Of a stretch of DNA of 64,000 nt, positions 1,609 to 25,096 are shown piece after piece. The stretch's first letter is position 1; every line of letters begins with the position of its first letter. The stretch is from NCBI RefSeq assembly GCF_019697375.1, contig NZ_JAHCDI010000004.1, positions 2,033,324 through 2,097,323 of the forward strand. Direction: 5' to 3'. Made by a program: the position numbers and the translations under genes. The notes under the pieces are model-generated. The model was not told where the DNA came from and ran no database searches. It saw nothing but the letters and a program-made list of their open reading frames with translations. Origin of the DNA: Micromonospora tarapacensis. Lineage in GTDB: Bacteria > Actinomycetota > Actinomycetes > Mycobacteriales > Micromonosporaceae.

Positions 1609-2855
1609 TCAGCGACTCGCGCCCGCGCGCCGCTTGTTGTAGACGTCGAAGGCCACGGCCACCAGCAGCACCAGGCCCTTCACCACCGATTGCAGCGACT
1701 GGTCCACGCCCATCAGCTGCATGCCGTTGCTCATCACCGCCATGATGAGGCCACCCACCATGGCACCCACGACGGTGCCCACGCCACCGGTGACCGCTGC
1801 GCCGCCGATGAAGGCCGCGGCGATCGCGTCGAGCTCGAACATGTTGCCGGCCGCGGGCTGTGCGCCGTTGGAGCGCGACGAGAAGATGATGCCCGCCACG
1901 GCGGACAGGAAGCCCATGTTGACGAAGATCCAGAAGTTGACGGTACGGACCTTCACGCCCGACAACATCGCCGCGGAGAGGTTGCCGCCGATCGCGTAGA
2001 CCTGCCGGCCGAAGACCGTACGCCGGGTGAGCAGGCCGTAGACCAGCACCAGCGCCGCAAGGATGATCAGCACGATCGGCAGACCGCGAGCGTGGGCCAA
2101 CTGCCAGGCGAAATACATGACCACGCCGCCGACCAGCGTCATCCGCACGACGAACAGCACGAACGACTCGACGGGCTGCTGGTAGCGGATGCGCGCGGCC
2201 CGGGTGCGGAAGCAGCTCACCACGTAGCCGGCCACCCCGATCGCGCCGATCAGCAGGGTGAAGGCGTCGTAGCCGTCCCCGCCGATCAGTCCGTTGAGGA
2301 AGCCGGCCGCGATCCGGTTGTACTCGGCCGGGAACGGCGACAGCGAGATGTTGTCGAGCACCCGCAGGGTGAGACCGCGGAACAGCAGCATGCCCGCCAG
2401 GGTCACGATGAAGGCGGGGATACCGACATACGCGACCCAGAAGCCGTGCCAGGCGCCGACCGCGATGCCCACGGCCAGGGCGGCCAGCACGCCGACCCAC
2501 CACGGCTGGCCCTGCCGGATGACCACCACGGCGGAGACCGCACCGGTCAGCGCGACCACCGAGCCGACCGACAGGTCGATGTGCCCGCCGATGATCACGA
2601 CGACCATGCCGATCGCGAGCACGAGGATGTAGGAGTACTGCAGGACGATGTTGGTGATGTTGCCCGGGCTCAGCGAGATGCCGTCGGTCAGGAACGCGAA
2701 GAGCGCGACGATGACGACGAGGGCGACGAAGATCCCGCTCTGCCGCAGGTTGTTCATGATCAGCGCGCGGGGATCGCTGGTGCCGGCGTGCGGCGCGGCG
2801 CCGGGAGCGCTCTCGGCGGGCTTCCTGTCCGCCGCCGACGAGGGCTTGGTGCTGG

Positions 2856-2859
<4 letters not shown>
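1609..2859 (-). CDS. mmsB: Monosaccharide ABC importer permease (MmsB/GguB type)
   Basis: This 416-residue integral membrane protein of the CUT2 family forms the translocation channel for a monosaccharide. It begins with a polar N-terminus of about 40 residues and then has about ten hydrophobic segments. The family signature [20 protein letters not shown] is present near residue 95, and the C-terminal half carries [20 protein letters not shown], a segment that contacts the ATPase. The ATG overlaps the stop of mmsA in an ATGA, so translation is coupled. It is the third gene of the chvE-mmsA-mmsB order typical of multiple-monosaccharide transporters. Confidence 0.92.
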
Positions 2860-4394
<1,535 letters not shown>

Positions 4395-4441
4395 GCTCAC
4401 CGTCCTGGCGGTCTGGATCGTGCGGGGTGGCAGGGGTGGTG

Positions 4442-4475
4442 CCGGGCTCGGCGACGATGCCGCCGCCGAGCCCGG
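4442..4475 (-). terminator. Intercistronic hairpin between chvE and mmsA
   Basis: A perfect 12-bp GC stem (CCGGGCTCGGCG against CGCCGAGCCCGG) encloses a 10-base loop. It starts just after the chvE stop. It has no T tract, so it probably acts as a partial terminator or 3' stabiliser that keeps binding-protein mRNA above transporter mRNA, a common arrangement in sugar ABC operons. Confidence 0.6.
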
Positions 4476-4485
4476 GACAGCGCCG

Positions 4486-5616
4486 TCAGCCGGCCTGGCC
4501 GGCGGCGACCTCCTCGGCGGTGAAGTAGCCCGAGTCGATCAGAACCGGCTTGATGTCGTCCTTGTACACCGTCTGGACCGGCAACAGGTACGACGGGACG
4601 ACCTTGACACCGTTCTCGTACGTCTCGGTGTCGTTGGCCTCCGGCGTCTTGTCGGTCAGGAACGCCTCACCGGCGATGACGGCCTGCTCGGCCAGCAGGC
4701 GGGTGTCCTTGAAGATGGTGGAGTGCTGCACCCCGTCGTCGATCAGCTTGACCGAGGCGATCTCGGCGTCCTGACCGGTCACCACCGGGAAGTCGGCACC
4801 GCGGTAGCCGGCGTTCTGTAGGGCGGTGATGATGCCACGGGACAGCCCGTCGTACGGCGACAGGACGCCGTCGACCTTGGTGCCACTGTTGTAGCTGGCG
4901 GTCAGCAGGTCCTCCATCCGCCGCTGCGCGGCCTCCTGCTGCCACCGCAGGATCGCCACCTGCTCGATGTCGGTCTGCCCGGACGTCACCTTCAGCGTGC
5001 CGTCCTCGATGAACGGTTTGAGGGTGTCCATCGCGCCGTCGAAGAAGAAGTGGGCGTTGTTGTCGTCGAGCGATCCGGCGAACAGCTCGATGTTGAACGG
5101 TCCCTTCGCCTCGCCCTTCGCGCCGTCCTTGGTCTGCACACCGAGGCCGACCAGCAACGCGGTCGCCTGGGCGACGCCGACCTTGCGGTTGTCGAAGCTG
5201 ACGTAGAAGTCGACGTTCGGGCTTTCCCGGATGAGCCGGTCGTAGGCGATGACCGGGATGTCCGCGTCGGCCGCCGCCTGCAACTGCCCGCTCAGCGCCG
5301 TGCCGTCGATCGCCGCGATGATGAGCACGTCGGCACCGCGCGTGATCATCTGGTCGACCTGCTGGGACTGGGTGGGGATGTCGTCACCGGCGTACTGGAG
5401 GTCGACCTGGTAACCCTTGGCCTCGAGCTTCTCCTTGACCGAGTTGCCGTCCGCGATCCACCGCTCGGAGGTCTGGGTCGGCATCGAGACGCCGATGGTC
5501 AGGTCGCCGGGGCTGTCGCTGTCGTTCCCATCGCTGCCGGCACCCTCACCACTGCAAGCCGCCATACTCAGCGCCAGTACGGCGCTACCGAGAGCGGCCA
5601 GGATTCTTCTGCTCAC
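4486..5616 (-). CDS. chvE: Monosaccharide-binding lipoprotein (ChvE type)
   Basis: A periplasmic-binding-protein-like lipoprotein of 376 residues that captures the sugar for MmsAB. It begins [21 protein letters not shown], a signal peptide with a lipobox ending at Cys21. It then shows the CUT2 binding fold: [17 protein letters not shown], the long Gly/Asp-rich insertion [19 protein letters not shown] typical of ChvE, and [15 protein letters not shown] near the C-terminus. The GTG at 5616 is chosen over more distal starts because it gives a normal signal peptide and has GGGGAAG 5-8 bases upstream. It is the first gene of the operon and has a LacI-type palindrome 65 bp upstream. Confidence 0.92.
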
Positions 5617-5680
5617 TGGCTTCCCCAATCTGGAACTCGCGCCGTCGGACCGGCTGCGCGGGTCGCACTTGGGGCCCAAG

Positions 5681-5997: not shown

Positions 5998-6045
5998 TTG
6001 ACATCCACCTGACGGACGCCGATGCTCTGCTAAATCAGTTTAGCG
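5998..6045 (+). promoter_or_regulatory. Promoter and LacI-type operator of the secreted esterase
   Basis: TTGACA (5998-6003), a 17-base spacer and GATGCT (6021-6026) form a sigma-70-like promoter. Directly downstream lies the palindrome GCTAAATCAGTTTAGC (6029-6044), with perfect 6-base arms. Positions 6022-6045 are identical over 24 bases to the reverse complement of 22845-22868, in front of the CUT1 binding-protein gene, where the same -35/-10 spacing is found. A repressor at this place would cover the transcription start. The LacI protein at 23037-24062 is the likely binder (inference). Confidence 0.75.
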
Positions 6046-6120: not shown

Positions 6121-7431
6121 ATGAGACTGCGCAGGACGCTCGTCTCCGTCGCTGCGGTGCTGCTGCTGGCCACGTCCGGCACCGCCGCCTATGCCGCGAC
6201 CAGAGAACACGGCGGCGGCACCGGTGGCATCCGCAGCGTCACACCGATCACCACCGTCTACACCTATGGCCAGAAGGTCTCGGCCGTCGCGGTCGAGTAC
6301 GGCGCGACGGTCAACCCCCACAAGCTCGACAACTCCACCTTCTCGGTCTCCGACACCAGCTACAACTTCCGCTTCAACCCGATCGAGGACCTGCCCAAGC
6401 TGACCGAGCGGAGGATCACCCGCACCTACACCAACAGCGCCGCCACGACCCGCGCCGACCGCCGGTCGGTCCCCGGACGGTACGTGATCGTCGAGCTGGA
6501 TCCGGACCAGAACGCCGGCTGGACGGTCATCGTCTCCAAGTGCCCGACCTTCCTGTGCACCGTCAAGGTGAACACCGACCTGCCGACCCGGGTGACCCAG
6601 CGCAAGGATGTGCACGCCCAGCCGGGCAAGGGCAGGGGCAAGGGGCCGGTGCTGGCCAAGGCCGCGCCACGCACCTCGCACGGGGTCACCGAGCCGCCGG
6701 TGAACCTGCTCGTCGACGACTTCGACTACGGCTCGTACCTCAGCGGCGGCATGGTGCTGCCGTACCACTACCACCTGCCGAAGAACTACCAGCCCGGCAG
6801 GAAGTACCCGCTGATGGTCGTGCTGCCCGGACACGGCATGGGATGGGACGGCGACAACGCGGGAGTGCAGATCGCCGCCGACATCCCGGCGACGGCCTGG
6901 TTGCGGCCAGACGTGACCGGCAGCCGGGAGGACGTCATCGTGCTCGCCCCGCAGAACCAGCGGGTGGGTGACGTGGCGGAGGCGGACCTGCTGGTCAAGC
7001 TGGTCGACCAGTTCAGCAAGGACTACGCGGTGGACACCGACCGGGTGTACGCCACCACCGTCTCGTACGGCTCCCGGCTGTTGTGGGAGGCGTTCGCCAA
7101 GCGTCCCGACCTGTTCGCCGGCGGGCTGGTGACCGGTGGTTTCCAGGTCGGCGCCGCACAGGCGACGGCCATCGCCGCCGCCGAGATCCCGCTCTGGATC
7201 ACCCACGGCGTCAGCGACCACCTGCTCAACATCTCGCTGGCCCGCAACACGCAGGCGGCGCTGCGCTCGGCGTACGAGGCGCGGGGCAAGACACCGCAGC
7301 AGATCGACGAGTTGCTGCACTACACCGAGTACGGCAACGAGGCGTTCTCGCTGCCCGACTACCACGCGGCCTACGGCCCGACGTACGACGACCGGGGCAT
7401 CCTGCGGTGGCTGCTGGCCCAGCGGAAGTGA
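6121..7431 (+). CDS. Secreted alpha/beta-hydrolase esterase (carbohydrate-esterase-like)
   Basis: The 436-residue protein starts with a Sec signal peptide (about residues 1-26, ending AAYAA). An N-terminal Ig-like region of about 190 residues follows, as in the Esterase_Ig-like domains that precede some carbohydrate esterases, and then an alpha/beta-hydrolase core beginning near YHYHLPKNYQPGRKYPLMVVLPGHG. Candidate catalytic residues are Ser315 (ATTVSYGSR), Asp366 (HGVSDHLL) and His415 (PDYHAAYGP). The nucleophile elbow lacks the usual first Gly of GxSxG. The ribosome site AAGGAGGG precedes the ATG. The shared operator links it to the CUT1 locus at 18-25 kb, so a role in removing ester groups from an exported substrate is inferred. 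The substrate is unknown. Confidence 0.75.
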   Translation: MRLRRTLVSVAAVLLLATSGTAAYAATREHGGGTGGIRSVTPITTVYTYGQKVSAVAVEYGATVNPHKLDNSTFSVSDTSYNFRFNPIEDLPKLTERRITRTYTNSAATTRADRRSVPGRYVIVELDPDQNAGWTVIVSKCPTFLCTVKVNTDLPTRVTQRKDVHAQPGKGRGKGPVLAKAAPRTSHGVTEPPVNLLVDDFDYGSYLSGGMVLPYHYHLPKNYQPGRKYPLMVVLPGHGMGWDGDNAGVQIAADIPATAWLRPDVTGSREDVIVLAPQNQRVGDVAEADLLVKLVDQFSKDYAVDTDRVYATTVSYGSRLLWEAFAKRPDLFAGGLVTGGFQVGAAQATAIAAAEIPLWITHGVSDHLLNISLARNTQAALRSAYEARGKTPQQIDELLHYTEYGNEAFSLPDYHAAYGPTYDDRGILRWLLAQRK

Positions 7432-7572: not shown

Positions 7573-10500
7573 TCAGGCGCCGATCGCGATCGCGAAGATG
7601 TGCATGGTCGGCACGTTGGCCGCCGGGCGTGCGCTGATGTTCGGCAGTTCCACCCGGGCCACCGGCTTGTTCTGCAACGCCACCCCGACGTAGTAGACGC
7701 AGGCGGCGACGTTGTGCCGCTGGTTGCCGGGCCGGTTCTGGTACGCCATCACGACGGCCGCGGTGCCACCGCCGTGCGGTCCGCCGTACCAGTCCGGGGT
7801 GCTGAGCGTGAACGTCTGCCGGGTGCCGTCGGCGTAGACCACGGCGGCGGTGCCCGAGACGGCACCGTAGGTGCCGGTCGCGAGGAAGCCGAGCGTACGG
7901 CCGGTGCCGGTCAGACCGATCGACTGCCCGGAGGCGATGGCGTTGTCGGCACCGCCCGGTGCGACGTCGGGCCAGCGGAAGGTGACCCCGTTGCGGCTCA
8001 CCGTGCTGCCGGGCGTGACCCCGGCCTGGGCCAGGGCCTGCGCGGAGAGGGTGGCTCCGTTGCCGTCGAAGTTGCCGGCGCCGGTGTTGTAGTCGTTGGT
8101 GGTGCTGACGTTGGTGAAGCTCTGCTCCAGCGGCGGTGCGGTGGGCGCACCGCCGGACCCGGTGGCCCGGTAGGTGCGCCCGGCCGCGACGGTGACCTCG
8201 ATCAGGTCGCTCTCGACCTTCGTGGTCGGGGCCGGGGTGCCGTCGGCGGCGTCGACCACGGTGTGGTTGCCGGTGAACAGCCGGCCGCGCAGCCGGACGG
8301 TGCCGGCCCGGTCCGGCCGGACGAGAATCTCGCTGGCCTGGCCGTTGCTCCAGGTGATGCCGACGGTGTGACCGCCCCGGCCCCGCAGCCCGCTGACCCG
8401 TCCGCTGGGCCAGGCCGCCGGCAGGGCCGGCAGGATGTGTAGTTCGCCGACGTGGCTGTGCAGCAGCATCTCCGCGATGCCGGCGGTGGCGCCGAAGTTG
8501 CCGTCGATCTGGAACGGCGGGTGCAGGTCGAACATGTTCGGCGCGAGCCGGGCCGGGGTGGCGAGGAAGCGGATCAGGTCATGGGCCCGGTCGCCCTCCT
8601 CCATCCGGGCCCAGAAGTTGATTTTCCAGGCGAGCGACCAGCCGGTGCCGTCGTCGCCCCGGATCTCCAGGGTGCGCCGGGCCGCCTCGAACAGCTGCGG
8701 GGTGTTGCGCCGGGTGATCTGGTTGCTGGGGGCCAGACCGTAGAGGTGCGAGACGTGGCGGTGGTTCCGCTCGGTCTCGACCCAGTCGTAGAGCCACTCC
8801 ATGATGTTGCCGCGCGATCCGATCCGGTTCGGCGCGAGCCGGTCCCGGGTGGCCCGGACCTGTGCCCGGAAGGTGGCGTCGGTGTTGAGGATCTCGCTCG
8901 CCCGGGCGCACCCGTCGAAGAGGTCCCGCAGGATCTGATTGTCCATCGTGGGCCCCGCGCAGACGCTGGCGTCGGCGTGGTGGCCGATCTCGGGCGAGTT
9001 CGACGGGTTGGTCACCAGGTAACCGAGGCTCGGCTCGGTCACCAGGGTGTCGAGGAAGAACTGCGCCGCGCCCCTCATCGCCGGGTAGTTCGCCCGGAGG
9101 AACTCGATGTCCCCGGTGAACAGGTAGTGGTCCCAGATCAGGGTGGCCAGCCAGGCGCCGCCGGTCTGCCACATGCCCCAGAAGGCGCCGTCGACCACGG
9201 AGGTGGCCCGCCAGGCGTCGGTGTTGTGGTGGGTGACCCAGCCGCCGGCACCGTACTGCACCTGGGCGGTGCGGGCGCCGGCGACCGCGAGGTCCCTGAC
9301 CATGTCGAAGACCGGTGCGTGGCACTCGGACAGGTTTGTGGTGTTGGCCGGCCAGTAGTTCATCGGCAGGTTGGCGTTGATGGTGTACTTCGAGTCCCAG
9401 GCCGGGGTCAGCGAATCGTTCCAGATGCCCTGGAGGTTGGCCGGCTGGGTGCCCGGCCGGGAGGACGAGATCAGCAGGTACCGGCCGAACTGGAACAGCA
9501 GCGCGGAGAACTGCGGATCGTCGACGTTGTTGTGCTGGGCGATCCGGACGTCGGTCGGCTGGTCCGCCGCCGAGGTACGCCCCAGGTCGAGGCTGACCCG
9601 CCCGAACAGCGCCTGGTGGTCGGCGACGTGCCGGGTGCGCAGCTGGTCGTAGCTGCTGGCCCGCGCCGCGGTAAGGTGCCGCCGCGCGATGCCCTGGTAG
9701 TCGCCGCCGACGTTGCGGTAGTTCACGTAGCTGGAGCCGATCGAGACCAGCAGGGTCACGCTGGTGGCGCCGGTGACCCGCAACGTGCCGCCGGAACTGC
9801 TCACGGTGCCGCCGCTGACGGTGGCGTTGGCCAGCGCAAGGAAGCGCACCGCGCCGGTGACGCCCTCCTGGTTGCCGGAGACGCCGTCGAGGGCGATCGT
9901 GGTGCCGTCCGGGCTGGAGACGGAGGTCCGCTGCGGGCTGTCGAACGTGGCGGTGAAGGTGATCGAGCCGCTCCGGTCGGCGGTCAGCCGCATCGCGATG
10001 ACCTGGTCCGGTGCGCTGGCGAACGTCTCCCGCTGGTACCGCACCCCGTTCATCACGTACGACACGCCGGTGGTCGCGGTGGTGAGGTCAAGCTGCCGGT
10101 CGTACTGCGACGCCCCGCCGGAGGTCGGGAAGGCCAGTCGGAGGTTGCCGACGGTCTGGTACGCCAACTGCCCGACCGGGTTGCCGAGCATGTTCTGGTT
10201 GACCAGGTTCTGGGCCTGGGTCCACTGGTTCGCGAACACGAGTCGCCGGATCTCGGCCAGCGCGCCCAGACCACGCGGGTTGCTCGGGTCGTGCGGTCCG
10301 CCGGCCCAGACGGTGTCCTCGTTGAGCTGTAGCCGTTCCGCGTCGACGTTGCCGAAGACCATGGCACCGAGCCGGCCGTTGCCGATCGGCAGCGCCCGCA
10401 GCCAGTCGGTGCCGGCGGCCTCGTCGTACCAGAGCGCCAGGTCACCGGCGGCCAGCACCTGTGGCGGTGCCGCCGGATCCGCTCGGGCCGCGGCGGTCCA

Positions 10501-10575
10501 GGGCAGCGGCAGCAGGGCGCCACCCGCACCCGCCGCGCCGATCTTGAGGGCCTGCCGTCGAGTCAGGTCTGACAT
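7573..10575 (-). CDS. Tat-exported alpha-L-fucosidase, glycoside hydrolase family 95
   Basis: The 1000-residue enzyme would release L-fucose from fucosylated glycans outside the cell. A Tat signal begins it (TRRQALKIGAAGAGGALL). The GH95 N-terminal beta domain follows (WLRALPIGNGRLGAMVFGN, LNEDTVWAGGPHD), then the catalytic (alpha/alpha)6 barrel with the family motifs NANLPMNYWPA (catalytic Asn pair), NSPEIGHH (general-acid Glu region) and FQIDGNFGATAG (Asp). After about residue 815 comes a separate beta-sandwich domain, probably sugar-binding. The ATG at 10575 has GGAGG 5 bases upstream; an upstream in-frame start would only bury the Tat motif. FadR-type sites lie at 10646 and 10859. Confidence 0.93.
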   Translation of the reverse strand: MSDLTRRQALKIGAAGAGGALLPLPWTAAARADPAAPPQVLAAGDLALWYDEAAGTDWLRALPIGNGRLGAMVFGNVDAERLQLNEDTVWAGGPHDPSNPRGLGALAEIRRLVFANQWTQAQNLVNQNMLGNPVGQLAYQTVGNLRLAFPTSGGASQYDRQLDLTTATTGVSYVMNGVRYQRETFASAPDQVIAMRLTADRSGSITFTATFDSPQRTSVSSPDGTTIALDGVSGNQEGVTGAVRFLALANATVSGGTVSSSGGTLRVTGATSVTLLVSIGSSYVNYRNVGGDYQGIARRHLTAARASSYDQLRTRHVADHQALFGRVSLDLGRTSAADQPTDVRIAQHNNVDDPQFSALLFQFGRYLLISSSRPGTQPANLQGIWNDSLTPAWDSKYTINANLPMNYWPANTTNLSECHAPVFDMVRDLAVAGARTAQVQYGAGGWVTHHNTDAWRATSVVDGAFWGMWQTGGAWLATLIWDHYLFTGDIEFLRANYPAMRGAAQFFLDTLVTEPSLGYLVTNPSNSPEIGHHADASVCAGPTMDNQILRDLFDGCARASEILNTDATFRAQVRATRDRLAPNRIGSRGNIMEWLYDWVETERNHRHVSHLYGLAPSNQITRRNTPQLFEAARRTLEIRGDDGTGWSLAWKINFWARMEEGDRAHDLIRFLATPARLAPNMFDLHPPFQIDGNFGATAGIAEMLLHSHVGELHILPALPAAWPSGRVSGLRGRGGHTVGITWSNGQASEILVRPDRAGTVRLRGRLFTGNHTVVDAADGTPAPTTKVESDLIEVTVAAGRTYRATGSGGAPTAPPLEQSFTNVSTTNDYNTGAGNFDGNGATLSAQALAQAGVTPGSTVSRNGVTFRWPDVAPGGADNAIASGQSIGLTGTGRTLGFLATGTYGAVSGTAAVVYADGTRQTFTLSTPDWYGGPHGGGTAAVVMAYQNRPGNQRHNVAACVYYVGVALQNKPVARVELPNISARPAANVPTMHIFAIAIGA

Positions 10576-10645
10576 CGATCCTCCAACCGTGACCGATCCG
10601 GCCATGCGAAGCCTCACTGATCGCCGACAGACCCAGAATGGCCAG

Positions 10646-10656
10646 ACATCAGATGT
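10646..10656. promoter_or_regulatory. Candidate FadR/FCD operator upstream of the fucosidase
   Basis: ACATCAGATGT is an 11-base near-palindrome 71 bp before the GH95 start. Related sites occur at 10859, 11303, 12138, 17679 and 17765, around genes of the same pathway. The likely binder is the FCD regulator at 11402-12097 (inference). Confidence 0.6.
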
Positions 10657-10858
10657 GTTTCGCGAATGTTACCGCCTGACGGCGCGATAGGCAACGGTCT
10701 ATCTCGCCAGCGGACCGGGGCGACGGCCCGTCCGTCGTCCCGTCAATTCCGAATCTCACCAGGCATTACGCAATCCAGGGCAGGGTGCTACCACACCCGG
10801 CGGGCGGCCCGGCCGGACCGGACCACACACCGACCGAGACTGGTGCAGGCACCTTATT

Positions 10859-10868
10859 CATCAGATGT
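10859..10868. promoter_or_regulatory. Second candidate FadR/FCD site upstream of the fucosidase
   Basis: CATCAGATGT shares ten bases with the site at 10646 and lies in the same 318-bp gap between the mutarotase stop and the fucosidase start. Two sites 213 bp apart could support looping or separate promoters. Apart from these sites the gap holds no recognisable gene. Confidence 0.45.
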
Positions 10869-10893
10869 AGGGAGCGCGGTAGAGCGATGCGTA

Positions 10894-11229
10894 TCAGTAC
10901 CGATCCTCGGTCAGGTGCCAGATCTCCTGCATCGGGGCCCACAAGTGCCCCGACCCGGGTTCGGCGAGCGATTCCTGGCACGGGTCGGTCAGCTTCCACC
11001 ACGCCTGCGTCTCCGGGTCGTCGGCCATCCGGCGCTGGTCCGCGTCGTGGTCATCGCCGACGTACTCGTAGTAGCCGAACAACAGGTCGCCGTGGAGAAA
11101 GATGGTGAAGTTGCGGATGTTCCCCTCGCGTAGCGTCTGCTCGACACCGGGCCAGACCTCGGCGTGCAGCCGCAGGTAGGTCTCCCGGTGCTCCGGCCTG
11201 AGCCGGATCACCATGCCGTAACGTCGCAT
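10894..11229 (-). CDS. L-fucose/L-rhamnose mutarotase (RhaM-like, COG3254)
   Basis: The 111-residue protein begins MRRYGMVIRLRPEHRETYLRLHAEVWPGV, the family's conserved N-terminus with the active-site His of LHAEVWPGV, and continues with NFTIFLHGDLLFGYYEYVG. The C-terminal WWKLTDPCQ and MQEIWHL are also typical. These small dimeric enzymes interconvert the alpha and beta anomers of 6-deoxy-hexoses. The family is named for rhamnose, but the neighbouring fucosidase and fuconate dehydratase point to L-fucose. The ATG at 11229 has GGAGGG 8 bases upstream. It is transcribed divergently from the FadR-type regulator across a 172-bp gap. Confidence 0.88.
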   Translation of the reverse strand: MRRYGMVIRLRPEHRETYLRLHAEVWPGVEQTLREGNIRNFTIFLHGDLLFGYYEYVGDDHDADQRRMADDPETQAWWKLTDPCQESLAEPGSGHLWAPMQEIWHLTEDRY

Positions 11230-11302
11230 GTCACACCCTCCGGTGAGGTCGGTTGATCCTGGTCCCGGCAGCCACACGGCGAGCGAGCCACGGCGCCGGC
11301 AA

Positions 11303-11322
11303 ACGTCCGATGTCTCTATAGT
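11303..11322 (+). promoter_or_regulatory. Operator and -10 element in the mutarotase/regulator divergent gap
   Basis: ACGTCCGATGT (11303-11313) matches the 10646 motif at 9 of 11 positions. TATAGT (11317-11322) follows as a good -10 element for the regulator gene at 11402. The site would let the regulator control itself and the divergent mutarotase. Confidence 0.5.
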
Positions 11323-11401
11323 GGTGAGGGTTGCCGGTGTCGGCCGCAGGTGGTGGCCCCAGGCTGACGGCGTCCGGCCGACCGGTCCGAAGGGGGCGTG
11401 G

Positions 11402-12097
11402 ATGGCACTGACCGACGACGCGATCGCGAAGATCCGGAGCATGATCCAGAGCGGTGAGCTGCCCCCGGGGACGCGGCTGCCACCAGAGCCGCAACTGGCC
11501 GCCCAGATGGGGTTGTCGCGCAGCGGAGTCCGGGAAGCGGTCAAGGTGCTCGAATCGGCCCGGGTGCTCGACGTGCGGCGCGGCGACGGAACGTACGTCA
11601 CCAGCCTCGCACCCCGGCTGCTGCTGCAGGGGCTCGGCGTCGCGGTGGAACTGCTGCGTGACGACACGCTCCTGGAGGTCATGGAGGTGCGCCGGATGCT
11701 GGAGCCGATGGCGACCGGCCTGGCGGCGCTGCGGATGACCGACGCCGACCTCGACGAGCTGGGCCAGATCCTTCAGGACATGCGGGCGGCGACCGACGAC
11801 GCCGAGAAGCTCATCCAGTTCGACACCGCCTTTCACCACACCGTCGTCGCCACCACCGGCAACGAGACCCTCACCTCGCTGCTGGACGGGCTCTCCGGTC
11901 GTACGCTGCGGGCCCGGGTGTGGCGCGGGTTGATAGAGGGCGACGCGGCGCACCAGACGATCGAGGAGCATCACACGATCTATCTCGCGCTGCGCGCGCG
12001 TGACCAGTTGCTGGCACAGGCCAGCGCCCTGCTGCATGTCAACACCTCCGAGGCGTGGCTGCGTACGGTGCTCGCCGCGAAGTCGACGGACGGGTAG
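11402..12097 (+). CDS. FadR-subfamily GntR transcriptional regulator (FCD domain)
   Basis: The 231-residue protein has a GntR winged helix (residues 1-68; LPPEPQLAAQMGLSRSGVREAVKVLE, then RRGDGTYV). An all-helical FCD ligand domain follows, with metal-binding positions in FDTAFHHTVV, EEHHTIYLAL and LLHVNTSEAW. FCD regulators usually respond to sugar acids or carboxylates, so L-fuconate or a later intermediate is a reasonable effector here (inference). The ATG at 11402 follows AAGGGGG; the longer frame upstream is not supported. Its location between the mutarotase and the dehydratase, together with the repeated ACATCAGATGT-like sites, makes it the probable regulator of the fucose genes. Confidence 0.9.
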   Translation: MALTDDAIAKIRSMIQSGELPPGTRLPPEPQLAAQMGLSRSGVREAVKVLESARVLDVRRGDGTYVTSLAPRLLLQGLGVAVELLRDDTLLEVMEVRRMLEPMATGLAALRMTDADLDELGQILQDMRAATDDAEKLIQFDTAFHHTVVATTGNETLTSLLDGLSGRTLRARVWRGLIEGDAAHQTIEEHHTIYLALRARDQLLAQASALLHVNTSEAWLRTVLAAKSTDG

Positions 12098-12137
12098 CGG
12101 CCGGATCGAAGCAGGCAGGCCGACCGAGCCGCGGCAG

Positions 12138-12147
12138 ACATCAGATG
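12138..12147. promoter_or_regulatory. Additional ACATCAGATG site in the convergent gap
   Basis: ACATCAGATG lies between the stops of the FCD regulator and the fuconate dehydratase, where no promoter is expected. It may be a remnant of a rearranged promoter or an accessory site. The remaining 155-bp gap shows no gene and no clear terminator hairpin. Confidence 0.35.
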
Positions 12148-12252
12148 AACCGCCCCGTACGGTCGCGTAGCCGAACAACTCGGCGACCCCGGCCGGTGGA
12201 CGGCGAACGCCCTCGAACGCAGAGTTGCGGTGGCCCCGGGCCGCATGCGTGA

Positions 12253-13578: not shown

Positions 13579-13628
13579 CGAAACTCCTGAGGGGTCGAGC
13601 AGGTGGGCCTGACTGTCTGCCTCGCGAA

Positions 13629-13647
13629 CGGCCCGGCCGCCGGGCCG
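13629..13647 (-). terminator. Intercistronic hairpin before fucD
   Basis: CGGCCCGG and CCGGGCCG form an 8-bp GC stem with a 3-base loop between the permease stop and the fucD start. It lacks a T tract and may serve as a processing or attenuation point. Confidence 0.45.
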
Positions 13648-13654
13648 GGCCGCC

Positions 13655-18431: not shown

Positions 18432-19583
18432 TCAGCTGTCGCCCAGGCAGTCCCGGACCGCTGCGGAGAGCAGGTTGGCGCGCTCGTCGTCGAAGCCGCC
18501 CATCTGGTTGACGACGTAGCCGAACCCGACCTGGTGGGCCTCGTCGCCGAAGGCCAGGTGCCCACCCGCCCCGTCATGGCCGAAGCTGCGTTCGCCGAGC
18601 ATCGGGCGGGGCACCGAGTGCACCAGGAAACCGGTACCCCAGCGGTGTCCCGCGTCGGGGAGCCCGTAGACCTGTTGCCCGCTGACGCGGACCGTGACGG
18701 CGTCGTCGACGGACGCGGGGCTGAGCAGCCGCGCACCGTCGACCTCGGAGACACAGGCGGCGTAGAGGCGGGCCAGGCTCTCGGCCGTGCTGACCGCGCC
18801 CGCGCCCGGGATCTGGGCGGCCTGTATGGCCGGGTCATTGAAGCTGACCAGGCCGTTCTCGTCGGCGGGGAAGGCGAAGGCACCGCCCATGGTGATGCCG
18901 CGCTCGGCGACCGGGTCGCCGGCCGGAACGGGCTCGCCGATCGGCGCCAGCATCCAGGCGACCGCGTCGCGTTCGGCGGCCGGCAGGCCGATCCAGGTAC
19001 GCAGGCCGAGCGGCTCACCCAGGGCGCGGGCAAAGTAGGCACCAGGCATCTCACCGGTGATCCGTCGGATCACCTCGCCGATCAGCCAGCCGTAGGTGAT
19101 CGCGTGGTAGCTGTACGCGGTGCCCGGCTTCCACAGTGGAGTCTGCGCCTCGATCGCCTTGATCACCGGGTCCCAGGCCAGCACCTCCTCGCGGGAGAAG
19201 TGCTGGTCCAGCGCCGGCAGGCCGGACTGGTGGGTGAGCAGCCACCGTACCGGGATCTCCGCCTTGCCGTGCTGGCCGAACTCCGGCCAGTAGCGGGTGA
19301 CCGGTGCGTCGAGCTCCAGCCGGCCCTCCTGCACCAGCAGGTAGGCGCAGATCGCCATGATCCCCTTGGTGCAGGAGAAGACGACCGCGGGCGTGCCGGC
19401 GGTCCAGGGCCGGCCCGATCGGGGGTCGGCGGACCCGCCGTGCAGGTCCACGACCTTACGACCGGCCACGTACACGGCGACTGCGGCGCCCACCTCGCCC
19501 CGGCTGGCGAAGTTGTCACGGAACACGTCGGCCACCCGGCCGAAGCCGTCGTCGGCGTGCCCGTGGATCTGGGTGTCGGTCAA
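18432..19583 (-). CDS. Serine hydrolase of the class C beta-lactamase fold (EstB-like esterase)
   Basis: The 383-residue protein has the catalytic SxxK motif Ser70-Cys-Thr-Lys73 (VVFSCTKGIMA) and the Tyr motif YSYHAITYGWLIGEV near residues 157-165. Together with WLLTHQSGLP and FGHDGAGGHLAFGD, these are typical of family VIII esterases such as EstB. There is no signal peptide, so it acts in the cytoplasm and is unlikely to be a resistance beta-lactamase. It follows the CUT1 permease gene by 4 bp and is therefore the last gene of the importer operon. De-esterification of imported sugars is the inferred role. Confidence 0.85.
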   Translation of the reverse strand: MTDTQIHGHADDGFGRVADVFRDNFASRGEVGAAVAVYVAGRKVVDLHGGSADPRSGRPWTAGTPAVVFSCTKGIMAICAYLLVQEGRLELDAPVTRYWPEFGQHGKAEIPVRWLLTHQSGLPALDQHFSREEVLAWDPVIKAIEAQTPLWKPGTAYSYHAITYGWLIGEVIRRITGEMPGAYFARALGEPLGLRTWIGLPAAERDAVAWMLAPIGEPVPAGDPVAERGITMGGAFAFPADENGLVSFNDPAIQAAQIPGAGAVSTAESLARLYAACVSEVDGARLLSPASVDDAVTVRVSGQQVYGLPDAGHRWGTGFLVHSVPRPMLGERSFGHDGAGGHLAFGDEAHQVGFGYVVNQMGGFDDERANLLSAAVRDCLGDS

Positions 19584-19587
19584 CTCG

Positions 19588-20415
19588 TCATCCCTTCACG
19601 GACCCTTGGAGCAGTGCCTTGATGAATTGTCGCTGGAAGATCAGGAACACGATCAGCGTGGGGGTGAGGATCAGGAGCGAGCCGGCGCAGAGCAGCACCA
19701 GATCCGTCCCCCACTGACCCTGGAAGGCGCCGAGCGCGCCGGCCATCGTCCGTTTGGTCGCGTCGTCGACCAGGACGATGGCGAGCAGGAACTGGTTCCA
19801 GGTCCACAGGAACAACAGGATGGTCAGCGAGGCGATGGCCGGCCGGGCCAGCGGCACGTGCACCCGCCAGAACAGCTGCCAGGTGTTGCTGCCGTCCACC
19901 CGTGCCGCCTCGGACAGTTCCCGGGGCACGTTGATGAAGTGGGCGCGCATCCAGAAGACCGCGAACGGCATGTAGAGGCCGATCAGCGGCAGGATGATCG
20001 CCCATCGGGTGTTGAGCAGGCCCAGGTCCCGCATCTGGTAGTACAGCGGGGTGACCACCGCCTCGAAGGGCAGGGTCAGGCCGAGCAGCAGCAGCCCGAA
20101 GGCGAGGTGACCGCCGGGTACCCGCAGGTGACCGAGGCCGAACCCGGCCATGGTCGCGATGAGCACGCCGATCGGCACCACCCCGGCCACGATCAGTGCG
20201 CTCGACTTCAGCAGGGCGCCCATGTTCGCGGCGGTGAAGGCGTCGGCGAAGTTGCCCCACTGTGGATCGGTGGGCCAGGCCAGGCCGGTGGGCACGGTGC
20301 CGCGCGGTTGCAGGGCCGCCGACAGCATGCTCAGAAACGGCAGCAGGGTGACCACGACCAGCGCGATCAGGAAGATGCGCCCGGTGAGCCGCTCGCTGCG
20401 GGTGGTCAGGTTCAT
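19588..20415 (-). CDS. Carbohydrate ABC importer permease, CUT1 (MalG-like)
   Basis: A 275-residue membrane protein with six hydrophobic segments. The EAA loop, which contacts the ATPase, is visible as LSEAARVDGSNTWQLFWRVHVPLARPAI. The C-terminus IFQRQFIKALLQGSVKG is typical of MalG-type permeases. The ATG at 20415 overlaps the last base of the upstream permease stop (TGATG) and has GGGAGAG before it; an upstream in-frame start at 20457 is rejected. No ATPase gene is in the operon. Confidence 0.9.
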   Translation of the reverse strand: MNLTTRSERLTGRIFLIALVVVTLLPFLSMLSAALQPRGTVPTGLAWPTDPQWGNFADAFTAANMGALLKSSALIVAGVVPIGVLIATMAGFGLGHLRVPGGHLAFGLLLLGLTLPFEAVVTPLYYQMRDLGLLNTRWAIILPLIGLYMPFAVFWMRAHFINVPRELSEAARVDGSNTWQLFWRVHVPLARPAIASLTILLFLWTWNQFLLAIVLVDDATKRTMAGALGAFQGQWGTDLVLLCAGSLLILTPTLIVFLIFQRQFIKALLQGSVKG

Positions 20416-21380
20416 CACTTCTCTCCCCGGGTCAGCCGCTGGATCGGCAGTACGCACACCAGCACCAGCGCCATCAGCACCACCGCCAGGGCAGAGGCGA
20501 GGCCGACCTGACGCTGCGAGAAGGCGAGCCGGTAGATCTCCAGGCCGGGCACGGTGGTCTGGAGTCCCGGACCACCGCTGGTGGAGATGTAGACGATGTC
20601 GAAGCTGGCCAGCGCCGCGATGATGGTCACGGTCAGGCAGATCCCGATCTCCTGGCGCAGGCTGGGCAGGGTCACCGCGAAGAACTCACGCATCGGGCCG
20701 GCCCCGTCGATCCGGGCGGCCTCGTAGAGCGAGGGGTCGATCTTGCTCATGCCGGTGATCAGCAGGATCGTGCAGAGGCCGAGCATGACCCAGGTGCCGA
20801 TCACGCCCACCGCCGGCAGCGCGGTGTCGAAGTCGCCGAGCCAGGCCCGGGTGACGCCGTCCAGCCCGACGGCCCGCAGCGCCTGGTTGACCAGCCCGTT
20901 GGTGGAGAGCACCCAGCTCCAGGCGATGCCGGCCGCGACGAGCGGGATCACCTGGGGCAGGAACAGCACGGTGCGGACCATGGTGCCGGCCGGGCCGGTG
21001 GTGATCCGCCGGACCAGGCTGGCCACCAGCAGGCCGAGGACGACCGGAATGAAGCTGAAGAAGATGATCAGAATGAACGCGTTGGAGATGATCTTCAGCA
21101 GGTCCCGGTCGGTGAAGACCGTGAGGTAGTTGTCCAGCCCCGCCCAGCGGGCGGCCCCGATGCCGTTCCAGTCGTACAGCGAGTACTGCACGGTCAGCAC
21201 GAGCGGACGCAGCACGAAGACGCCGTACATGATCAGGGCGGGCAGCACCCAGAGCCAACCGGTCCACCGGACCGTGCGGCCCCACCGCTTCCGGTGGGGC
21301 CGCACGGGTGACCGGTGTCCCCGGCCGGGCCGGGACGAGGTGTCCGGCCCGGCCGGGGCGCTGCCGAGGGCAGACGTCAT
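20415..21380 (-). CDS. Carbohydrate ABC importer permease, CUT1 (MalF-like)
   Basis: The 321-residue protein has a basic N-terminus of about 35 residues and six transmembrane segments beginning GWLWVLPALIMYGVFVL. Its EAA loop is YEAARIDGAGPMREFFAVTLPSLR. It pairs with the MalG-like permease downstream. The start overlaps the binding-protein stop by 4 bases. The pair probably uses a shared MsiK-type ATPase encoded elsewhere, as most actinobacterial CUT1 systems do. Confidence 0.9.
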   Translation of the reverse strand: MTSALGSAPAGPDTSSRPGRGHRSPVRPHRKRWGRTVRWTGWLWVLPALIMYGVFVLRPLVLTVQYSLYDWNGIGAARWAGLDNYLTVFTDRDLLKIISNAFILIIFFSFIPVVLGLLVASLVRRITTGPAGTMVRTVLFLPQVIPLVAAGIAWSWVLSTNGLVNQALRAVGLDGVTRAWLGDFDTALPAVGVIGTWVMLGLCTILLITGMSKIDPSLYEAARIDGAGPMREFFAVTLPSLRQEIGICLTVTIIAALASFDIVYISTSGGPGLQTTVPGLEIYRLAFSQRQVGLASALAVVLMALVLVCVLPIQRLTRGEK

Positions 21381-22738
21381 CGGGACAGTTCCTTCTCGTA
21401 CTCGGCCTGGACCGCCTTCACGTACCCCTCGGGGGTCTGCTGACCGGCGACCAGCTTCTGCATCTCGGGGGTGATGGCCGCGGCGAAGATGCCGCCGGTC
21501 GCGTTCGCGGTGAAGTCGACCGCGCCGTTGTCGGCGCCCAACTGCTGCGAGGCCTTGAGGGTCTCGGCCAGCACGGTCCCGTCGGCCACCGGCGGCAGGG
21601 CCAGGTCGGCCGGGCCGCCCGGGTGCGAGCCGCCGACGGTCACCGAGATCTCACGGGCCTTGTCGTTGGTGTGCAACCAGTTGAGGAAGTACGCGGCGGC
21701 GTCCGCGTTCTTCGCCCTGGCGCCGACGCCGAAGGTGTTCGGCGCGGACATCGCGACCCGCTTGGCGTCGGCGGTCTCACCCGGGAAGAGGAAGAAGCCG
21801 ACCTCGCCGGCCATGTTCTTGTCCAGGTTCCCCGACTCCCAGTCGCCGTTGAACATGAACAGGCCGTTGCCCTTCTGGAACTCGCCCATCATGGCGGTGT
21901 AGTCGATGGCGTTCGCGTCCTGCGGGAAGTAGCCGGCCTCGGCCCACTTCTGGATGGTCTGGGTCGCCTTGAGCGCGGCGGGCGTGTCGAAGGTGGCACC
22001 GGGCTTCTGGAAGATCCAGTCCGCGATCGCGGTCGGGTCGCCGTACTGGTTCTGCAGTGCCTGGTGCGGGAAGTTGATGCCGGCGGTGTTCTTGTTGAAC
22101 TGCATGATCGGCAGCAGGTCGGCCGCCTTCGCCTTGGCCAGCAACTCCTCGAACTCGGCGATGGTGGCCGGCGGCTGGGTCATGCCGACCTGCTCGGCCT
22201 GCTTCTTGTTGTAGAAGACGCCGGTCACGCTGTAGCCGAGCCCCATGCCGTACAGCGATCCGCTGCCACGCACCGCCCCGCCGTCGGACAGGCGCAGCTG
22301 CACCAGCTGGGAGGCGGGGAACTTGTCCCAGCCGTGCGCGTCGAAGTACGGGTCCAGGTTCTTCAGCAGCCCGTCCTTGACCAGGTCGACCATGGTGGGC
22401 AGCCGGATGATGTCGGGCGCGTTGTCCGACGCGAGCACCCGGGGTGCGTTCTCCGTGATCACGGTGAACTGGTCCTCGCGGATGTTGAACGTGACGTTCG
22501 GGTGCTGCTTGGTGAACTCGTCCGCGAGCGCCTTGGCCAGCGGGAAGCCGGTCTCGGCGTACATTTCCAGGGTGATCGGGTCGCTACCGAGCTCCGTGCT
22601 GACCGCGGCGTCGGGGTCCCCCGACGGGGTCTGCTCGGAACCCGGCGCGCTACAGGCGGTGCTTGTCAGACCGACGGCCAGCAGTGGCACCAGCAGTGCC
22701 AACCGGCGTCGGGTGAACCTCGTCGAGAACTCCGGCAC
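21377..22738 (-). CDS. Extracellular oligosaccharide-binding lipoprotein, CUT1 family 1
   Basis: A 453-residue solute-binding protein. The signal peptide contains TRRRLALLVPLLAVGLTSTAC, with the lipidated Cys at the end. Family 1 binding-protein features follow: EMYAETGFPLAKALADEFTKQHPNVTF, DIIRLPTMVDLVKDGLL and MMGEFQKGNGLFMFNGDWE. It captures a di- or oligosaccharide for the two CUT1 permeases. The GTG start has AAGGAG 6 bases upstream. The promoter at 22845-22892 carries the strong LacI-type operator. The substrate is unknown. Confidence 0.9.
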   Translation of the reverse strand: MPEFSTRFTRRRLALLVPLLAVGLTSTACSAPGSEQTPSGDPDAAVSTELGSDPITLEMYAETGFPLAKALADEFTKQHPNVTFNIREDQFTVITENAPRVLASDNAPDIIRLPTMVDLVKDGLLKNLDPYFDAHGWDKFPASQLVQLRLSDGGAVRGSGSLYGMGLGYSVTGVFYNKKQAEQVGMTQPPATIAEFEELLAKAKAADLLPIMQFNKNTAGINFPHQALQNQYGDPTAIADWIFQKPGATFDTPAALKATQTIQKWAEAGYFPQDANAIDYTAMMGEFQKGNGLFMFNGDWESGNLDKNMAGEVGFFLFPGETADAKRVAMSAPNTFGVGARAKNADAAAYFLNWLHTNDKAREISVTVGGSHPGGPADLALPPVADGTVLAETLKASQQLGADNGAVDFTANATGGIFAAAITPEMQKLVAGQQTPEGYVKAVQAEYEKELSR

Positions 22739-22844: not shown

Positions 22845-22892
22845 CGCTAAACTGATTTAGCAGAGCATGCGCGCGTTGCCGGGGGCTGTCAA
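22845..22892 (-). promoter_or_regulatory. Promoter and LacI-type operator of the CUT1 importer operon
   Basis: On the minus strand TTGACA (22892-22887), a 17-base spacer and CATGCT (22869-22864) are followed directly by the palindrome GCTAAATCAGTTTAGC (22861-22846). The layout is the same, base for base in 24 positions, as the esterase promoter at 5998-6045. It lies in the divergent gap to the LacI gene at 23037 and may control that gene too. Confidence 0.78.
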
Positions 22893-23036: not shown

Positions 23037-24062
23037 ATGGGCCGCGACAGAGCAACCTTGGCCGACGTGGCGCGCCGGGCCGGGCTGTCCAAGACCGCCG
23101 CGTCGATGGTGCTCAACGGCCGCGAGGGCACCCGGCTCTCCGCGGAGGCGCACCAACGGGTCTTCGCCGCCGCGGAGGAACTCGGCTACCGGCCCAACGT
23201 GGCCGCCCGTAGCCTGCGGACCCGCAAGACCGCCACCATCGCGTTCGTCTCCGACATCGTCGCCACGACCCGCTTCGCCGGCGGCCTCATCCGCGGCGCG
23301 CTGGACGCCTCCCGGGAGCGCGACCACGTCCTGCTGATCACCGAGACCCAGGGCGACGCGGCGTTCGAGCAGTACGCCATCGAGGCGATCCTCGACCGCC
23401 AGGTCGACGGCGTGATCTACGCGGCCATGGCGACCCGCCGGCTGGCCGTACCGCCGGCCATCCTCGGCGGCCCGGTGGTGCTGCTCAACGCGACCAGCCC
23501 GGAGCAGCTGCCCTGCGTGCTGCCCGACGACGAGCGGGCCGGTGCCGTGGTCGCCGAGACCCTGCTCGGCCAGGGCCACCGGGATCGCATCGCGCTGATC
23601 GGTCGCAACCGGCAGAAGGAACGCGATCCGGAGATCTCCCTCGCCGCCGAGGCCCGGCTGCGCGGCATCCGGGACACCCTCGCCGCCGCCGGCGTCTCGC
23701 TCCTCAGCGAGGGCTTCTGCCCGGAGTGGCAGCCGGAGCACGGCTACGCCGCCATGCGTACCCTGCTGGATCGGCCCGCCCGGCCCACCGCGGTGATCTG
23801 CATGAACGACCGGCTCGCCTTCGGCGCGTACCAGGCGCTCGGCGAGACCGGCCTGACCATCCCGGACGACCTCTCGGTGATCTCCTTCGACGACGACCCG
23901 ATCGCCGCCTGGCTCCGGCCGGGGCTCTCCACCGCCGCGCTGCCGCACGAGCAGATGGGGCGCCGGGCGGTGGAACTCCTGCTCGACGGGGATCATGCCG
24001 GCCCCACGTTGGTGCCGATGCCGCTGCGGCGCCGCCGCTCCGTGGCCCCGCCCGCGGGCTGA
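23037..24062 (+). CDS. LacI-family transcriptional regulator
   Basis: The 341-residue protein has the LacI helix-turn-helix and hinge helix (ATLADVARRAGLSKTAASMVLNG, then NVAARSLRTRK) and a periplasmic-binding-like effector domain (TIAFVSDIVATTRFAGGLI, VLPDDERAGAVVAETLLGQG, VICMNDRLAFGAYQALGETG, VISFDDDPIAAWLRPGLS). The ATG at 23037 has GGAGG 5 bases upstream. It is divergent from the CUT1 operon and 68 bp upstream of the GH32-like gene. It is the natural candidate to bind GCTAAATCAGTTTAGC. The effector is presumably the imported sugar. Confidence 0.92.
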   Translation: MGRDRATLADVARRAGLSKTAASMVLNGREGTRLSAEAHQRVFAAAEELGYRPNVAARSLRTRKTATIAFVSDIVATTRFAGGLIRGALDASRERDHVLLITETQGDAAFEQYAIEAILDRQVDGVIYAAMATRRLAVPPAILGGPVVLLNATSPEQLPCVLPDDERAGAVVAETLLGQGHRDRIALIGRNRQKERDPEISLAAEARLRGIRDTLAAAGVSLLSEGFCPEWQPEHGYAAMRTLLDRPARPTAVICMNDRLAFGAYQALGETGLTIPDDLSVISFDDDPIAAWLRPGLSTAALPHEQMGRRAVELLLDGDHAGPTLVPMPLRRRRSVAPPAG

Positions 24063-24099: not shown

Positions 24100-24114
24100 G
24101 CTAAACCGATTCAC
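24100..24114 (+). promoter_or_regulatory. Weaker copy of the LacI-type operator before the GH32-like gene
   Basis: GCTAAACCGATTCAC keeps the left arm GCTAAA, the 4-base spacing and part of the right arm of the palindrome seen at 6029 and 22846. It lies 17 bp before the ATG of the GH32-like gene, where bound repressor would also hinder elongation. Confidence 0.45.
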
Positions 24115-24130
24115 TGGTACGTTTCCGGCC

Positions 24131-25096
24131 ATGCTGAGTCTGCCCGACCACTGGGTGTGGGACAGCTGGTACGCCCAGGACGACGCCGGCCGCTGGCACG
24201 CCTTCTTCCTGCGCGCCTCCCGCGCCCTGCTCGACCCGCACCGCCGCCACCGCCGTGCCTCCATCGGTCACGCCGTCTCCACCGACCTGCGCTCCTGGCG
24301 CCTGCTCGCCGACGCGCTCGTGCCCGCCGACCAGCCGGCCTGGGACGACCTGGCCACCTGGACCGGCTGCACGGTGCGCGGCCCGGACCGGCGGTGGTAC
24401 CTCTTCTACACCGGGGTCGGCCGGGCGGAGGACGGCCTGGTCCAACGCATCGGCCTGGCCGTCTCCGACGACCTGCTGACCTGGCACCGGCACGGCGACG
24501 GCCCGCTCCTGGAGGCCGACCCCACCTGGTACGAGCTGCTCGACCGCGAGATGTGGTACGAGCAGGCGTGGCGCGACCCGTGGGTCTTCCCCGATCCGGA
24601 CGGCCACGGCTGGCACATGCTGATCACCGCCCGCGCCAACCAGGGACCTGCCGACGCGCGTGGTGTCGTCGGCCACGCGACCTCGCCGGACCTGCTGAAC
24701 TGGACCGTCCAGGCGCCGCTGTCCGCGCCCGCCGGATTCGGTCACCTGGAGGTGCCGCAGATCGCCGTCGTCGACGGCCAGCCGCTGCTGCTGTTCTGCA
24801 CCAACGCCTTCGCCGCCGGTCGCGAGTCCGGGCACCGGCTCTGGGTGACGACCTCGCCGACGGTCCGTGGCCCGTGGGACGTCGCGTCCGCCCGGCCCGT
24901 CGCGCAACCGCACCTGTACGCGCCCCGCCTGGTCCCCGACGCCGACGGCTGGTCCCTGATCGGTTTCGTCGAGCACGCCGACGGCGAGTTCGTCGGCGAG
25001 ATCAGCGACCCGATCCCGGTCCGCTACGAGCGCACCGGCGGTCTGGTCGCGCGGGCCCCGACGGTGGTTCCCGCCGGAGCCCACCACCCCGGCTGA
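24131..25096 (+). CDS. GH32/GH68-like five-bladed beta-propeller glycosidase
   Basis: A 321-residue cytoplasmic protein without signal peptide. It shows a beta-propeller glycosidase pattern with three candidate acidic residues: Asp11 (WVWDSWYAQDDAG), Asp149 in the RDP motif (AWRDPWVF) and Glu207 (GHLEVPQIAVVDG). This order fits the nucleophile, transition-state stabiliser and acid/base of family 32 fructosidases. It is shorter than most GH32 enzymes and lacks their C-terminal beta-sandwich, so a GH43-like or other propeller activity remains possible. It follows the LacI gene and a partial operator and is probably the intracellular enzyme for the CUT1 substrate. Confidence 0.75.
   Translation: MLSLPDHWVWDSWYAQDDAGRWHAFFLRASRALLDPHRRHRRASIGHAVSTDLRSWRLLADALVPADQPAWDDLATWTGCTVRGPDRRWYLFYTGVGRAEDGLVQRIGLAVSDDLLTWHRHGDGPLLEADPTWYELLDREMWYEQAWRDPWVFPDPDGHGWHMLITARANQGPADARGVVGHATSPDLLNWTVQAPLSAPAGFGHLEVPQIAVVDGQPLLLFCTNAFAAGRESGHRLWVTTSPTVRGPWDVASARPVAQPHLYAPRLVPDADGWSLIGFVEHADGEFVGEISDPIPVRYERTGGLVARAPTVVPAGAHHPG

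Follow-up and report, generated by a model that had tools for sequence, protein, structure and literature searches.

A secreted esterase and a sugar importer appear to share one LacI-family repressor with a sucrose-type sugar-splitting enzyme in relatives of Micromonospora

Genes at the locus

The window analysed here is a stretch of 64,000 nucleotides from the genome of Micromonospora tarapacensis. The forward-strand gene at 6121..7431 encodes EstA_Ig, a secreted esterase of 436 residues with a signal peptide judged by eye. EstA_Ig contains a PF18435 Ig-like domain (100.5 bits) and a PHB-depolymerase-like alpha/beta hydrolase domain, the match to which is below the cut-off. Its nearest sequence relative of solved structure is the esterase EstA (PDB 3doh), which we take to be from Thermotoga. 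The match spans residues 37-434, nearly the full length of EstA_Ig, and the regions of the Ser, Asp and His residues align; however, the nucleophile motif is T-x-S-x-G in EstA_Ig and G-x-S-x-G in 3doh. Among 120 listed relatives of EstA_Ig, names such as hypothetical protein or predicted peptidase are often the only description.

The genes of a CUT1 importer are positioned 17 kb away on the reverse strand. The operon begins with the gene of a substrate-binding protein (21377..22738), which has no Pfam match, resembles an NCBIfam NgcE-like model below the cut-off, and has sugar-binding relatives in the PDB. It is followed by a MalF-like permease gene (20415..21380) and a MalG-like permease ORF (19588..20457), both matching PF00528. 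The binding protein together with two MalF/MalG-type permeases identifies the system as a CUT1 importer. None of the importer-operon ORFs examined encodes an ATPase; in actinobacteria, such importers usually rely on a shared ATPase. The final gene of the operon (18432..19583, reverse strand) encodes an EstB-like serine hydrolase with the beta-lactamase fold (PF00144), the nearest solved chains of which are carboxylesterases and in which no signal peptide was seen by eye. Most of the 17-kb gap between the esterase and the importer is filled by a deoxy-sugar catabolic locus (7573-17296), which contains a CUT2 importer along with GH95, the L-rhamnose mutarotase rhaM and an MR_MLE dehydratase-like protein. 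A second CUT2 importer is located at about 1609-5679.

The forward-strand gene at 23037..24062 encodes a LacI-family regulator with both domains that define the family, the N-terminal helix-turn-helix (PF00356, 45.9 bits, cut-off 27) and the periplasmic-binding-protein-like sensor (PF13377, 102.7 bits, cut-off 26.5). It is followed, on the same strand, by a gene for a 321-residue GH32/GH68-like protein of the beta-fructosidase fold (24131..25096), in which no signal peptide was seen by eye. The longer ORF of this gene matches PF00251 at 54.1 bits (cut-off 22.1), and the protein is also matched by PF04616 (GH43). Its AlphaFold2 model has a mean pLDDT of 84.6, and all 50 of the best matches listed for it are GH32 or GH68 enzymes (levanases, invertases and levansucrases), including the endo-levanase BT1760 (6r3u) with a query-normalised TM-score of 0.77. 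A C-terminal beta-sandwich domain is typical of GH32 enzymes. The 321-residue protein has no PF08244 match, and the last strand of its model stops at residue 307; therefore, it is named GH32/GH68-like and is not filed as GH32. An epoxide-hydrolase-like gene (PF06441, 25148-26410) lies downstream of it.

Paired promoters and the operator box

The promoters of the esterase gene and of the importer operon are built from the same elements, which are TTGACA, 17 bases, (G/C)ATGCT, the dinucleotide CT, and the 16-base palindrome GCTAAATCAGTTTAGC, in the same orientation to transcription. In the esterase promoter, on the forward strand, the -35 hexamer is at 5998..6003, the presumed -10 hexamer GATGCT, which agrees with TATAAT at only three of six positions, at 6021..6026, and the putative operator at 6029..6044. 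The corresponding reverse-strand positions in the importer promoter are 22887..22892, 22864..22869 (CATGCT) and 22846..22861. Neither promoter was called by a consensus promoter scanner, because the -10 hexamer is weak. An earlier note on this DNA had described the common architecture, and direct reading of both strands bears it out, including every element that was named; the CT between the -10 hexamer and the box was missing from that description. The 24 identical bases that the note had reported form the run ATGCTCTGCTAAATCAGTTTAGCG. Forty of 50 bases match between the two promoters, and nine of the ten differences are inside the 17-base spacer.

As had been claimed, the similarity is not expected by chance. 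When up to two mismatches are allowed, the pattern GCTAAA-N4-TTTAGC occurs at two sites in the window; shuffled windows contain 0.05 sites on average, and none of 100 shuffles contained two. The whole genome of 6,901,429 bases has exactly two exact sites, both within the window, where base composition predicts about 0.025. The Poisson chance of at least two is 3e-4, a figure that leaves out the identical spacer, the hexamers and the orientation. The genome-wide search proposed in the earlier note thus recovers both known exact sites but adds no further exact one. A third near-site with one mismatch (G000:C4:5569089) was considered as a member and judged to be a chance occurrence; the ORF behind it is matched only weakly, below the cut-off, by a HutC-like model, and no link to sugar or ester genes was seen in its surroundings. 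Ten more sites appear in the genome at two mismatches. However, a reversed control pattern gives 32 hits per strand compared to 13 for the real pattern, and sites with two mismatches therefore carry little meaning.

The weaker copy that had been noticed ahead of the GH32-like gene is present at 24100..24115 on the forward strand, 15 bases before the start codon, as the degenerate putative operator GCTAAACCGATTCACT. Three of its 12 palindrome positions are mismatched, which is why it is absent from the list of window sites with up to two mismatches. Relatives have better copies of this site at the orthologous position, and the GH32-like gene belongs to the regulon set.

Conservation of the box in Micromonosporaceae

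A search for relatives of the LacI protein identified 62 loci, of which 43 (L014-L055 and L059) were counted as near orthologues. They belong to Micromonospora (including Verrucosispora names), Plantactinospora, Virgisporangium and two other Micromonosporaceae. Among the 19 loci set aside, an exact importer box is lacking in L056 and L057, a box with one mismatch is present in L058, and the others have none at the importer side. The importer promoter contains the exact palindrome in all 43 near-orthologue loci, with an exact TTGACA 25-27 bases ahead of it in each. The centre of the importer box, read in the direction of transcription, is TCAG in 42 loci and TCAT in one. Downstream of the LacI gene, the pattern GCTAAA-N4-TT-N-A, a relaxed form for the GH32-like sites that was picked after seeing the data, is present in 41 of the 43 loci, with a central CG in most. 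In the loci where the sequence was viewed, about 15-20 bases separate this box from the GH32-like start codon, and the GCTAAACCGATTCACT form found in the window recurs in ten of the 43.

Orthologues of the esterase were matched by protein search alone in 26 of 61 Micromonospora genomes, and 23 of them (intact, at least 73%) were retained. The three that were dropped are G018 (55%) and G020 (53%), considered paralogues with no box within 600 bases, and G054, in which the gene is broken. In all 23 retained genomes, the exact palindrome lies upstream of the esterase at a distance of 80-125 bases. An exact TTGACA precedes it by 25-27 bases in each, and ATGCT is at the position of the presumed -10 hexamer in 22. 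The centre of the esterase box is TCAG in 21 genomes, TCCA in one and TCAT in one; G006 has TCAT at both its esterase and importer boxes. Twelve esterase boxes from other genera, at loci chosen for holding a box, have TCAG (10) or TCAA (2) and are accompanied by TTGACA; one more locus, L156, has an esterase fragment without an adjacent box. The esterase gene of G054 (L139:3940-5191) is in two pieces with no box found ahead of it, and the importer box of this genome is intact.

Throughout the 23 esterase and 43 importer promoters, the 17-base spacer diverges while TTGACA, the ATGCTCT region and the box stay. Therefore, the likeness of the promoters is held by selection and is not that of a fresh copy. 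If one promoter had recently been duplicated or had undergone gene conversion, without common regulation, the 24-base identical run and the 40 matching bases would be accounted for, but this reading is rejected as extremely improbable on the conservation pattern; the arrangement also recurs in other genera and families.

The asymmetric centre of the box (mostly TCAG, positions 6035-6038 in the window) has one orientation at nearly all importer and esterase boxes of the family, whereas the GH32-like boxes have CG. It is possible that the initially transcribed sequence is under selection, or that the operators differ in strength.

An exact box additional to those of the importer and the close esterase is present in four Micromonospora genomes. 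In G018 and G047, the extra box is ahead of a secreted PF00756 esterase that resembles feruloyl esterases, and TTGACA precedes it. In G001 and G003, a perfect box without TTGACA is ahead of a secreted protein of 542-543 residues, the hydrolase matches of which are all weak (L130:3829-5457 and L131:4850-6481).

Co-occurrence of the box and the regulator

The presence of the LacI protein in the genus sample of 61 Micromonospora genomes was scored at E values up to 1e-100. The protein is encoded in 30 of these genomes, and the exact box is found in 28, all of which are LacI-bearing. Thus, 28 of 30 genomes with the regulator have the box, compared to none of 31 without it (Fisher p 2e-15, relatedness ignored). 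In a family sample of 150 genomes, LacI was matched in 28; three of these (G103, G121 and G139, 51-54%) were not counted, which leaves 25 at no less than 77%. The exact box is present in 28 genomes of the family sample, and 23 have both. Among 140 family genomes outside the genus sample, the box was found in 20 of 22 with LacI and in five of 118 without. The reversed control pattern occurs in one of the 61 genus genomes and in six of the 150 family genomes.

Four genomes have the LacI protein without an exact box: G041, G055, G159 and G171. In G041, the tail of a permease alone is left beside the LacI gene and the GH32-like gene is fragmentary, and the stretch read in G055 has no good match to the importer genes of this operon. 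The protein search found no close esterase orthologue in either genome. Judged at the LacI locus, the targets of the regulator seem to have been lost together in G041 and G055. Seven of the 30 LacI-bearing Micromonospora genomes are without an intact close esterase orthologue. In G090, two LacI orthologues (80-81% identity) are located less than 6 kb apart (C1:1228998-1234466).

The box occurs without this LacI protein in five of the 150 family genomes. The exact boxes in G076 and G195 look like chance occurrences. In G098 and G138 the site is ahead of another LacI-type gene (28% identity), and G152 has the same palindrome. The sequence of this site is GCTAAAGCGCTTTAGC, found at L145:5093-5108 and L146:4682-4697 between the other LacI-type gene and an operon whose first gene appears, by eye, to be oxidoreductase-like. 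The locus is a putative paralogous regulon with the same half-site. Half-sites can therefore be common to paralogues, and a global or paralogous LacI protein, or a regulator of another family, might bind the box described here while the neighbouring LacI protein controls something else. Since the regulator and the importer are inherited together, co-occurrence alone cannot prove which protein binds. By contrast, the lack of exact boxes in LacI-less Micromonospora, the position of the box beside this LacI gene in all 43 near-orthologue loci, and the variant boxes beside or near distant LacI relatives (45-53%) argue for the neighbouring protein, and control by a different binder is unlikely.

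Gene neighbourhoods in other genera and families

The loci from other genera in which adjacency was studied had been chosen for holding a box. EstA_Ig has a box of its own and lies just past the importer operon in G177, G093, G163, G118 and G137 (genus g34) and in G079 (g20). It abuts the GH32-like gene in G169 and is near the block in G176, G170 and G136. In Virgisporangium (L049 and L050), EstA_Ig is beside the LacI block, and L050 has in addition a CE1-type esterase (PF00756, 82% to that of G047) downstream of the two permeases and in the same direction. The binding protein and MalF have been lost at the locus in G118, whereas both boxes, EstB and EstA_Ig have been kept. The ORFs were called with a crude gene finder that merged or missed some of them, for example in L148, L150, L151, L174 and L176, and six loci were re-checked by tblastn. 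Because the esterase adjoins the importer in several genera, the 17-kb distance is a lineage-specific separation. The connection of the esterase to a distant importer that the earlier note had put forward is therefore upheld as a connection, but the distance is not general.

In a class-wide sample of 296 genomes, EstA_Ig is matched in five at E values up to 1e-100, namely the window genome and four genomes from two other families, which were thus found by the esterase search alone. All four distant esterases have a box with one mismatch 99-217 bases upstream of the matched start; a second, tandem copy of the esterase in G343 has no box. Relatives of the LacI protein are encoded beside the esterase in G312 (51%), G275 (50%), G343 (52%) and G437 (45% and 49%), and a binding protein (53-58%) is beside it in all four. 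Permeases were seen in three of the four genomes; the contig of G275 ends early. Genes of the GH68 or GH32 type are at the cluster in three. The order of elements in G343 (L177) is GH32, PfkB kinase, GH68, MalG, MalF, binding protein, box, LacI, box and EstA_Ig. Both G343 promoters have GCTAATCCGATTTAGC in the direction of transcription, and the same two sites are present in G312 and G275. In G312, one gene resembles the GH68 gene by eye.

The cluster of G437 (L175) has three variant boxes that differ among themselves. One is in the gap between EstA_Ig and a CE1 esterase, another separates LacI from the binding-protein operon, of which a GH32-like gene is part, and the third is ahead of a PF07859 esterase. 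The box behind LacI belongs to this leftward PF07859 esterase gene. In Hoyosella (L058), a box with one mismatch is positioned between LacI and a GH13 gene.

Model of the regulon and its substrate

The regulon is well supported by computation, through its sites, architecture, conservation, co-occurrence with LacI, neighbourhoods and enzyme families. Co-regulation of the esterase and the importer through the adjacent LacI protein, as envisaged in the earlier note, draws on footprinting across relatives, on the co-occurrence of box and regulator, on adjacency elsewhere and on a like arrangement in two families. One sugar-sensing repressor thus appears to control jointly the esterase, the importer and a sucrose-type sugar-splitting enzyme in relatives of Micromonospora. 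The best reading, and a highly probable one judged from the sequences, is a local regulon for the use of ester-bearing beta-fructosides under a LacI-family repressor, with the esterase, the importer and the GH32/GH68-like enzyme as members.

The binding, the repression rather than activation, the inducer and the order of the enzyme steps are proposals of the model. A dimer of the LacI protein would bind the 16-bp palindrome at the promoters of the esterase gene and the importer operon, and the degenerate box in the GH32/GH68-like promoter would be its third target. The regulator would block its targets when there is no inducer, and a sugar derived from the substrate would bind to it and release them. 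Outside the cell, the secreted esterase would then strip off acyl groups, the sugar would enter through the CUT1 importer, the cytoplasmic serine hydrolase would remove leftover acyl groups, and the GH32/GH68-like enzyme would split the beta-fructoside bond.

The box starts 2-4 bases past the -10 hexamer and covers the expected transcription start, which fits repression by steric block. The poor -10 hexamer, as found in some activated promoters, could instead indicate that the LacI protein is an activator; however, a protein bound downstream of the -10 hexamer and over the expected start would block the polymerase, and the good -35 hexamer has been kept, so that activation is improbable. The GH32-like box lies ahead of a TA-N3-T hexamer located 7-8 bases before the ATG, which suggests that the GH32-like transcript is probably leaderless.

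The GH32/GH68-like fold of a member of the set narrows the "oligosaccharide" of the importer towards beta-fructosides. The combination of up to four esterase families with an importer and GH32/GH68-type enzymes, and of GH32, GH68 and PfkB in one distant genome, suggests a beta-fructoside that bears esters. From the enzyme families only, the substrate is proposed to be an ester-bearing sucrose or fructo-oligosaccharide. The same regulon might serve a different sugar, such as an acylated hemicellulose or arabinogalactan oligosaccharide, with the GH32-like enzyme acting on another sugar, and this alternative deserves serious consideration, at somewhat less than an even chance. The relatives of the binding protein include binders of chito- and manno-oligosaccharides, the GH43 family also matches the GH32-like protein, two genomes have the extra box ahead of a feruloyl-esterase-like gene, and the esterase of the window is surrounded by the deoxy-sugar locus. 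By contrast, all 50 listed best matches of the model are GH32 or GH68 enzymes, and the cluster in one distant family includes both a true GH68 and a true GH32 as well as a PfkB kinase, which favour the ester-bearing beta-fructoside.

A more far-reaching version of the beta-fructoside model, which is tentative and somewhat doubtful, is an ancient actinobacterial pathway dedicated to acylated sucrose or acylated fructo-oligosaccharides, in which one LacI repressor would sense the deacylated or partly acylated sugar. The substrates might be plant acylsugars or hydroxycinnamoyl sucrose esters, and the unrelated esterases EstA_Ig, PF00756, PF07859 and PF00144 would act on them. From the regulon, a route for the catabolism of ester-bearing beta-fructosides can be predicted, and the exact sequence of a candidate operator is available. 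The regulon gives a testable function to EstA_Ig and also to the importer. The gene set is present in many Micromonosporaceae and, in a diverged form, in other families.

Relation to known systems

In LacI-family regulons in general, an even palindrome of 16-22 bp is located close to each promoter under control (Ravcheev et al. 2014, PMC4052901), and a 16-bp site of this kind is found in 43 of 43 importer promoters and 23 of 23 Micromonospora esterase promoters. As in the local regulons described in that article, the regulator gene is beside a transporter operon, the operators are 76-107 bp before the start codons, and the targets include sugar uptake and a hydrolase. The differences are the secreted esterases among the targets and the centre of the operators. 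The central pair is CG for 1173 of 1251 even-palindrome regulators, different for 49 and degenerate for 29 (PMC4052901). By contrast, it is CA/TG at most importer and esterase sites of the regulon described here; the GH32-like sites have CG. The article covers seven actinobacterial groups, and its main text contains no words beginning with "Micromonospora", "esterase" or "GCTAAA".

The regulon resembles those of ScrR and CscR (PMC4052901, PMC4746261), in which a LacI-type regulator controls sucrose uptake and a sucrose-splitting enzyme; however, the accounts of ScrR and CscR in these articles mention no secreted esterase. LacI regulons are already known, and what is new is that secreted esterases are tied to a system of fructosidase and importer. 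This points to an undescribed pathway for eating ester-bearing sugars. No paper on this regulon was found among the matches listed from the open-access literature.

The hydroxycinnamic-acid esterase locus of Bifidobacterium longum (PMC6237967) likewise combines an esterase, ABC importer genes and a LacI-type gene. It has arabinofuranosidases rather than fructosidases, and the account of the locus describes no operator. A locus with a LacI protein of 40% identity in Bifidobacterium kashiwanohense, in which the genes were read only as ORFs, contains two GCTATAC(T/C)GATTTAGC sites in tandem at a distance of 22 bp (L060:6195-6232), and this spacing is among those preferred in PMC4052901. The two sites are positioned ahead of a PF07859 esterase, an MFS transporter and further hydrolases.
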